54,066 nt of DNA, taken from positions 1 to 54,066 of the forward strand of contig JAFUGT010000088.1 of the NCBI GenBank assembly GCA_017469275.1. Reading direction: 5' to 3'. The position numbers were made by a program, and so were the translations under genes. This document shows, piece after piece, positions 1 through 43,831 of the stretch; the first letter of the stretch is position 1, and every line of letters begins with the position of its first letter. This DNA comes from Lachnospiraceae bacterium. GTDB taxonomy: Bacteria > Bacillota > Clostridia > Lachnospirales > Lachnospiraceae. The notes below the pieces were generated by a model. That model searched no databases and was not told where the DNA came from. It saw only the letters and a list, made by a program, of their open reading frames with translations.

Positions 1-172
1 GTGCATATTATACAGATTCCATAAACAGACCCTTTGCGACCGTCGGTACTTATGCACCGTATTTTGGTGCATTAGTACCGCTACGTGAGCAACGGAGTGA
101 GAACGTGTCTGTGTTGGAACTGCATAATATGCACAAAATAGGAAACGTAAATTAGCGTTTCGCAATTGCCTA
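1..172 (+). repeat. Element A, copy 1 (left end cut by window edge)
   Basis: This is a second copy of the structured repeat at 43154-43364. The first 50 bases match that copy exactly. Then comes a tip hairpin of 23 bases that is unrelated in sequence but also self-complementary, and then about 100 bases with only a handful of differences. The outer arms GTGCATATTAT (1-11) and ATAATATGCAC pair, followed inward by CAGATTCC/GGAACTG and ACAGAC/GTCTGT. The tip is CGGTACT...AGTACCG enclosing ATGCACC/GGTGCAT. The left strand of the outermost stem lies outside the window. The element ends about 16 bases before the ribosome site of the DNA polymerase gene, so it may be its 5' leader. It could be a structured RNA, a cis-regulator or a MITE-like element. 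Confidence 0.8.
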
Positions 173-43124: not shown

Positions 43125-43153
43125 GTGAAACATGAACATTTTTTATGTATTAC

Positions 43154-43364
43154 TAGGCGTTTGCGAAACGCTCAAATGATGTATATCCTGTTGTGCATAT
43201 TATACAGATTCCATAAACAGACCCTTTGCGACCGTCGGTACTTAATGAGTGCAAAGCACGAATTTAGTACCGCTACGTGAGCAACGGAGTGAAAACGTGT
43301 CTGTGTTGGAACTGCATAATATGCACAAAAGAGAAAACACAAATTAGCGTTTCGCAATTACCTA
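43154..43364 (+). repeat. Element A, copy 2 (complete structured element)
   Basis: A 211-base unit that folds as one long rod. P1 is TAGG/CCTA plus TGCGAAACGCT/AGCGTTTCGCA. P2 is TTGTGCATATTAT with its complement (13 bp, 43191-43203 and 43316-43328). P3 is CAGATTCC/GGAACTG, P4 is ACAGAC/GTCTGT, and the tip stem is CGGTACT/AGTACCG. The tip contains GTGC-AAA-GCAC with two adjacent G-A mismatches. Compared with copy 1, flanks are near identical, while the 23-base tip differs and remains self-paired. It lies between a promoter and yqeY, 32 bases before the start codon. RNA leader, small RNA or MITE are all possible. Confidence 0.85.
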
Positions 43365-43396
43365 TTATGTATTACAATAACAAGGAGGACTAAACC

Positions 43397-43831
43397 ATGC
43401 AATTTGAAACATTACAGAAAGATATGATCGCTGCCATGAAGGCTCATGATAAGACAAGAAAGGATGCCATCTCAACCTTGGTTTCGGCAGCTAAGAAGAT
43501 AGCCATAGACGAGGGCAAGCGCGATGATATCCCTGAAGAAGTTGTTGACCGCGCAATTCTTAAAGAAGTTAAATCCGTGAAAGAACAGTTGGATACCTGT
43601 CCTGACGAACGCGCAGAACTCAAAGCGGAATATCAGGCCCGCTACGACATCATGCAGGAGTATGCACCGAAAATGCTTTCTGAGGAAGAGATTGAGAGCA
43701 TCATCAAAGAGAAATTTGCCGATGTTCTTGCCACGGGTAACAAGGGACAGATCATGAAAGCCGTTATGGGAGAACTCAAAGGCAAGGCTGACGGAAAACT
43801 GATCAACCAGGTTGTATCAAAACTATCATAA
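43397..43831 (+). CDS. yqeY: YqeY/GatB-like domain protein
   Basis: A 144-residue, mostly helical protein. It has the family start FETLQKDMIAAMKAHDKTRKDAISTL, the middle part EEVVDRAILKEVKSVKEQLD and the tail NKGQIMKAVMGELKGKADGKLINQVV. The tail domain resembles the tRNA-interacting tail of GatB. Stand-alone YqeY proteins are widespread, and their precise job is not settled. AAGGAGG lies 8-9 bases before the ATG. The MerR-methyltransferase gene follows after 28 bases, so they share the transcript that starts at element A. Confidence 0.9.
   Translation: MQFETLQKDMIAAMKAHDKTRKDAISTLVSAAKKIAIDEGKRDDIPEEVVDRAILKEVKSVKEQLDTCPDERAELKAEYQARYDIMQEYAPKMLSEEEIESIIKEKFADVLATGNKGQIMKAVMGELKGKADGKLINQVVSKLS

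Follow-up and report, generated by a model that had tools for sequence, protein, structure and literature searches.

The window element and its parts

The window analysed here is the whole of contig JAFUGT010000088.1 from a Lachnospiraceae bacterium (54,066 nucleotides), and the element under study is a 211-bp unit at 43154-43364, next to a gene for a YqeY protein (43397-43831). A second copy, cut by the contig start, lies beside a gene for a Y-family DNA polymerase (203-1390). Outside the tip of a central hairpin the two copies have identical bases at 50 of 50 positions on the left and 93 of 99 on the right; the tips, 23 bases in each copy, agree at 7 of 23 positions and are both self-complementary. 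This near-identity of flanks around an exchanged, equally long and still self-paired tip had been pointed out in an initial annotation of the DNA, and it holds in every part. The features are:

43154-43364, plus strand: complete element, terminal repeat to terminal repeat, 211 bp
43143-43153, no strand: left target duplication, TTATGTATTAC, 11 bp
43365-43375, no strand: right target duplication, TTATGTATTAC, 11 bp
43154-43169, plus strand: left terminal inverted repeat, TAGGCGTTTGCGAAAC, 16 bp
43349-43364, minus strand: right terminal inverted repeat, 16 bp, reading TAGGTAATTGCGAAAC on the minus strand
43212-43307, plus strand: conserved folded core, 92.0 bits with model R1
43236-43242, plus strand: conserved stem, 5' side, CGGTACT
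43243-43265, plus strand: variable tip of 23 bases, tandem G.A type, TAATGAGTGCAAAGCACGAATTT, whose terminal T and T form the U.U mismatch
43266-43272, plus strand: conserved stem, 3' side, AGTACCG
43289-43296, plus strand: side hairpin with GNRA loop (GAAA, 43291-43294)
1-172, plus strand: second copy, element positions 40-211, cut by the contig start
20-115, plus strand: core of the second copy, 88.3 bits
51-73, plus strand: variable tip of the second copy, Watson-Crick type, TATGCACCGTATTTTGGTGCATT

Element ends and target duplications

Since terminal repeats are accompanied by a target duplication in nine of the eleven core-bearing terminal-repeat pairs of the window genome (210-269 bp), the 211-bp unit is a mobile element that resembles miniature inverted-repeat transposable elements (MITEs), and it moves as double-stranded DNA. 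Its mobile nature accounts for the arrival of the window copy at 43154-43364. In the fetched loci of the window genome, target duplications of 9-13 bp bound 10 of 17 terminal-repeat pairs, and the control with swapped flanks gave 0 of 797. The window element is not a plain MITE, and its centre is a conserved fold, which is present in two terminal-repeat families as well as in copies with private arms.

The second terminal-repeat family comes from genome G987 (record CAJTEN), in which eleven fetched elements end in CAATGTCATTWAGTTAAG, seven of them with target duplications, here of 10 bp. End sites of this type number 124 and 132 on the two strands, with none in the control. The same genome holds four IS4-type insertion sequences of 1679-1726 bp with the same ends as the core elements, and the transposase of one of them (L330) is a DDE_Tnp_1. 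PMC2266710 gives IS4-subgroup ends as -AATR--- with duplications of 10-13 bp. Five loci with a transposase, four of them with matching ends, were searched for the core, and none contains it. Ends common to the element and an autonomous insertion sequence are found only for these CAATG-ended relatives in G987; for the window element itself, whose ends are of the TAGG type (TAGGYRWTTGCGAAAC), no autonomous partner was found in the window genome, where PF01609 and PF01797 were the only families sought, and PF01609 had no match in this assembly (82.6% complete). In the window genome, long pairs of terminal repeats with a spacing of about 3.1 kb were rejected as an autonomous partner, as they contain ordinary genes. 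Clean empty sites were sought between G255 and G380, and of the two candidates one was a deletion remnant and the other was not clean.

Several CAATG-ended elements of G987 (L074, L081, L096, L097, L110, L140) adjoin or sit within other short palindromes, which are forms of GTAACAGTTCAGCC and GTTACTATTCACGGC; this suggests a target preference for short palindromes. The window genome also contains core-less elements with similar ends, of 53 bp (L306, 1257-1309) and 43 bp (L309, 240-282), the latter with a near-perfect 12-bp target duplication. An insertion sequence with 54-bp inverted repeats, each of them palindromic, lies in the genus member G013 (L324, 1328-2996).

Core fold and covariation

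The fold comprises about 96 nt. In its outer half, an outer stem of variable sequence is followed by a two-pair helix and an inner stem; further in, the CGGTACT/AGTACCG stem with its two-base bulge leads over the U.U mismatch to three pairs. At the apex, either tandem G.A mismatches or two Watson-Crick pairs carry the variable tip, and the hairpin with the GNRA loop stands on the 3' side. The first alignment was made of 55 of 63 non-redundant cores found by the conserved-stem pattern, so that the columns fixed by the pattern are invariant in it. Within these diverse cores 82.5% of the cells are paired, two-sided changes occur at 24 of 34 pairs, and the covariation score is 0.437 vs 0.152 in shuffled and at most 0.148 in slid controls. 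For 102 distinct rows from loci reached by the model, two-sided changes are found at 33 of 34 pairs with a score of 0.626 (at most 0.135 when slid), values that are biased toward the fold by the alignment of the rows with the model itself. The likeness of the two copies exceeds chance: both the 40 matches to model R1 in the window genome and a covariation far above the shuffled and slid controls bear this out.

Unpaired positions are conserved as well. The GNRA loop is found in 294 of 301 distinct cores; apart from a handful, all of the 301 have a purine as third loop base, and no listed loop is GNYA. In a set of 183 cores outside the pattern-found ones, the U.U mismatch is kept in 177 and the unpaired A 5' of the side hairpin in 180, the two-base bulge is CT in 132 and TT in 45, and, among the types listed for the tandem position, 115 cores have G.A and 53 have two Watson-Crick pairs. 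As far as can be judged from sequence, the core appears to be selected for folding, as the initial annotation had proposed; covariation, the retention of the mismatch features and the pairs kept at orthologous loci (see below) all point that way.

Two side observations concern the fold. At core pair 28/73, C.A replaces U-A in 34 of 301 distinct cores and G.U in none. Extra hairpins resembling a second copy of the tip module (CUUA..GA..GA..UUAG) occur inside the tip or beside the GNRA hairpin (L017, 1501-1763; L039, 173-441; L094; L062).

Core and arms at orthologous loci

Orthologous copies were compared in 23 pairs from three species pairs (G255/G380, G019/G023 and G002/G005). Divergence is lower in the core than in the arms for 20 of the 21 informative pairs, with two ties, and lower than in the flanks, which are mostly coding, for 19 of 23. 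The pooled divergences for G255/G380 are 4.7% in the core, 17.7% in the arms and 8.4% in the flanks; the corresponding values are 1.6, 4.1 and 10.8% for G002/G005, and 1.5, 4.0 and 10.3% for G019/G023, where three flanks are doubtful. The 25 changed core pairs, from copies sense as well as antisense to genes, still pair in 19 cases (10 changed on both sides, 9 keeping G.U), with two other cases beside them, whereas changed arm pairs still pair in only 15 of 102 (1 compensated, 14 G.T), with A.C in 24.

The core and the arms also differ in strand asymmetry. For 245 copies, the outer arms contain G.T as often as A.C (307 vs 315), while in the core the G.U to A.C ratio is 88:22 in the outer stem, 131:14 in the tip and 22:7 in the central stem with pair 28/73 left out. 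Because of this asymmetry and of the pair changes at orthologous loci, it looks as if most of the core, unlike the arms, is under selection as a single folded strand.

The arms are paired with each other and, in some genomes, private to their copy. A copy's own arms pair (score of at least 10) in 237 of 261 copies, as compared with 18 of 261 when arms are exchanged. In G135, where the cores are 0.99 alike, own arms pair at 23.0 and the 5' arms of different copies match at only 12.1; in G255 the corresponding values are 20.5 and, between different copies, 2.8. Arms are common among copies in G000 and G987. The paralogous cores of G255 are only 0.68 alike, so that in this genome the conservation is not explained by copies homogenising one another. 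Insertion into pre-existing palindromes was rejected as the source of private arms: 400 kb of G135 (about an eighth of the genome) contain nine strong hairpins, one of which is the element, and arm-like sequence is present at full length only beside its two cores. At what is apparently the same locus, L352 in G255 and L346 in G380 have similar cores and unrelated outer arms.

The variable tip

Thirty cores of the window genome fall into three scaffolds, and one tip type is found in two of these; the tip types of this genome are few, recurrent and common to scaffolds. Across the copies read, 190 distinct tips were found among 246. At the same locus in a sister species the tip has changed and yet is paired. 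The tip is the least constrained paired part of the core across genomes, and the exchanged tip of the window copies is one of several segments that change while remaining paired. There is no sign that it acts as a specifier; the initial annotation had raised a variable specifier as one option, and the few recurrent tips common to scaffolds in the window genome do not support it. Nor do the tips show the random, unpaired changes that it had named as the mark of a plain MITE. Changes of the tip and the arms by exchange between copies or by template switching within the hairpin both fit, the latter as described in PMC8794818.

Distribution and comparison with named families

Model R1 matches all 26 genomes of the window genome's genus, with 1 to 112 matches each, and in the family 124 of 299 genomes and 123 of 298 genera. 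Overlapping samples of the order, phylum and class (295, 398 and 391 genomes) gave 30, 5 and 11 matching genomes, all of them within the family except one, G951. This genome, of the same phylum and outside the family, has nine copies, for which horizontal transfer is possible. The conserved-stem pattern was found in at least 115 stretches in named genomes; among the matches listed, the titles are mostly Lachnospiraceae or other Clostridia, and a few carry other labels (Bacteroides, Muribaculaceae) that are unconfirmed. Plasmids and phages gave no match, and viral contigs gave none to one pattern. The core is common to Lachnospiraceae elements with unrelated ends.

Comparison with 4227 Rfam families at the gathering score gave a tRNA gene (2181-2255) as the sole match in the window and, for ten loci, only an L10 leader lying elsewhere; permissive searches added only weak matches far below the gathering score. 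That the element belongs to no named RNA family, as first noted, thus agrees with Rfam. Among the literature titles listed, none describes the element, with the 250 other candidates of PMC11109978 outside the comparison and an earlier numbered listing there possible.

Genomic placement

None of 161 copies with enough flank lies inside a long reading frame, as judged by a simple caller. For 160 copies between two genes, the core is oriented with both genes in 55 and against both in 51, and lies between convergent genes in 30 and divergent genes in 24; core orientation to genes is random. The placement in sense before a coding sequence that had been noted for both window copies is real for these two and is not general. 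The median distance to the next gene is 108 on the 5' side and 71.5 on the 3' side. Close core pairs are divergent in 13 cases, tandem in 7 (three in one array) and convergent in none; 5' sides that face each other were noted in close pairs at several loci (L069, L072, L093, L148, L164, L204, L205, L213, L256, L266, L269, L173, L370). PF01797, the Y1 transposase, was found in 11 of 20 core-rich genomes, being absent from the other nine, and in 15 of 18 core-free genomes.

Discussion

Taken together, our data favour, with some confidence, a reading of the window element as a non-autonomous palindromic MITE-like unit whose core of about 96 nt is selected as a folded strand. Its parts stand at different levels. 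Very probably, the unit is mobile and its core is under selection for folding. Granted this, the folded strand is probably RNA rather than single-stranded DNA, and a role of the core at the level of the host may be considered, but only tentatively. The initial annotation had set a selected RNA fold and a MITE side by side as alternatives; the two are not exclusive. The mobile element is supported by terminal repeats and the 11-bp target duplication, although its interior does not look functionless, as the constraint on the core at orthologous loci indicates.

A number of observations weigh against the favoured reading. Among the 25 changed core pairs, four are losses or gains of pairing, and two orthologous pairs show many core substitutions (21 and 11), for which replacement by another copy would fit; at a few loci with many core changes the whole core may have been replaced. 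In G019/G023 the flanks of three of ten pairs are 27-31% apart, and the orthology of these three is therefore doubtful. Two pairs, both recurrent in common tips, account for the G.U total of the tip, and several parts of the core show no excess of G.U over A.C: the inner stem, which is poorly paired (26:70), the two-pair helix (11:13), the stem of the GNRA hairpin (2:3) and pair 28/73 (0:34). A random orientation to genes is also odd for a cis-acting RNA. Two scans of the flanks gave no promoter, consensus scans being weak in A+T-rich DNA, and a third scan, for a positional motif, gave no clear signal.

The element could alternatively be a plain MITE, a dead derivative of an insertion sequence in which the fold is a by-product of palindromic ends and paired changes come from templated correction. 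Terminal repeats and target duplications, the four IS4-type insertion sequences with the same ends in G987 and outer arms that are paired with no strand asymmetry are all in line with this, and template switching has been published as a source of paired changes (PMC8794818). We nevertheless consider it unlikely, because templated correction would erase the U.U and tandem G.A mismatches that persist, and three unpaired features are conserved: the GNRA loop, the bulge of two bases and the A preceding the hairpin. In addition, orthologous loci keep the core while the arms decay, and the core is joined to more than one kind of end and is missing from all five loci with a transposase that were searched. 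Somewhat less improbable, though still not our expectation, is a signal in single-stranded DNA, in which an HUH-type or other recombinase would recognise the core as a DNA hairpin while the lagging strand is synthesised, comparable to attC sites or to repetitive extragenic palindromic (REP) sequences and their REP-associated tyrosine transposases (RAYTs). The fold is strand-specific, close pairs are never convergent, and if DNA were the active form, the lack of promoters and the random orientation would need no explanation. Terminal repeats and target duplications, on the other hand, point to a double-stranded intermediate, and the Y1 transposase has no association with the core, nine core-rich genomes having none. 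Stable DNA tetraloops allow both GNRA and GNYA; in the core the third loop base is nearly always a purine.

Least probable by far is a cis-regulatory leader RNA of the downstream gene (a riboswitch or a protein-responsive leader), or an RNA with a specifier tip. Both window copies do lie in sense upstream of genes and the tips are diverse, but the genes differ between copies, as the polymerase and YqeY genes of the window illustrate, and tips of the window genome recur, one of them in two scaffolds. The random orientation and the failure to find a promoter make a riboswitch or a role in the 5' untranslated region unlikely, and the conservation of copies antisense to genes is further evidence against a leader.

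If the core is indeed a selected and host-kept fold in a mobile unit, copies would be retained by the host after insertion, much like REP sequences and the bacterial interspersed mosaic elements (BIMEs) they build. The folded core would then be a candidate docking site for a protein on the transcript, wherever the intergenic insertion happens to fall; docking on single-stranded DNA would be a less likely variant. Recombination among the copies may have produced the swapped tip and the private arms, together with template switching within the hairpin, which would replace a whole paired segment in one event. It is tempting to speculate that the cores form an unnamed, family-wide class of structured RNA inside palindromic mobile elements, domesticated site by site and kept after mobility ends, with arms and tip replaced as paired segments by hairpin-templated synthesis around an unchanging core. 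The passing of this RNA between elements with unrelated ends would belong to the same, equally speculative, picture.

If correct, the genomes of a common group of gut bacteria contain up to about 100 copies each (112 in one) of a folded element missed by annotation and Rfam, and the element would clearly exemplify mobile DNA that has an RNA-like structure, and not a gene, as its cargo. It would provide a test bed for whether paired changes stem from selection or from templated mutation, a question that core and arms answer oppositely, and for whether REPs and other dispersed repeats are retained for the sake of the host. A caution follows as well, since hairpin arms can mimic a covarying RNA with no strand-specific selection.

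It is useful to compare the element with known systems. It would fall in the mobile/repeat sequence candidate class of PMC11109978, described by many copies, inconsistent gene orientation, strong covariation and an active form, RNA or DNA, that is unclear. Within this class MRSC-65-2 shares with it many copies per genome, inconsistent orientation, covariation and the unclear form, and is described there as a single long stem that carries a UYCCGG repeat and occurs in diverse phyla, whereas our element is branched, has GNRA, U.U and G.A features and is nearly confined to one family. REP sequences and BIMEs with their RAYTs are likewise intergenic, palindromic and strand-asymmetric, with dozens of copies and opposite-orientation pairs; unlike these, the element is longer, has a three-way fold with a GNRA hairpin and target duplications, and does not depend on a Y1 transposase. 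With MITEs or mobile insertion cassettes of the IS4 family it has in common that it is short, non-autonomous and intergenic, with terminal inverted repeats, target duplications of about 10 bp and many copies, and in one genome (G987) the ends of its CAATG-ended relatives match those of full insertion sequences with a DDE transposase. In contrast to these, it carries a covarying core that is unrelated to the ends, constrained at each locus and common to elements with different ends.
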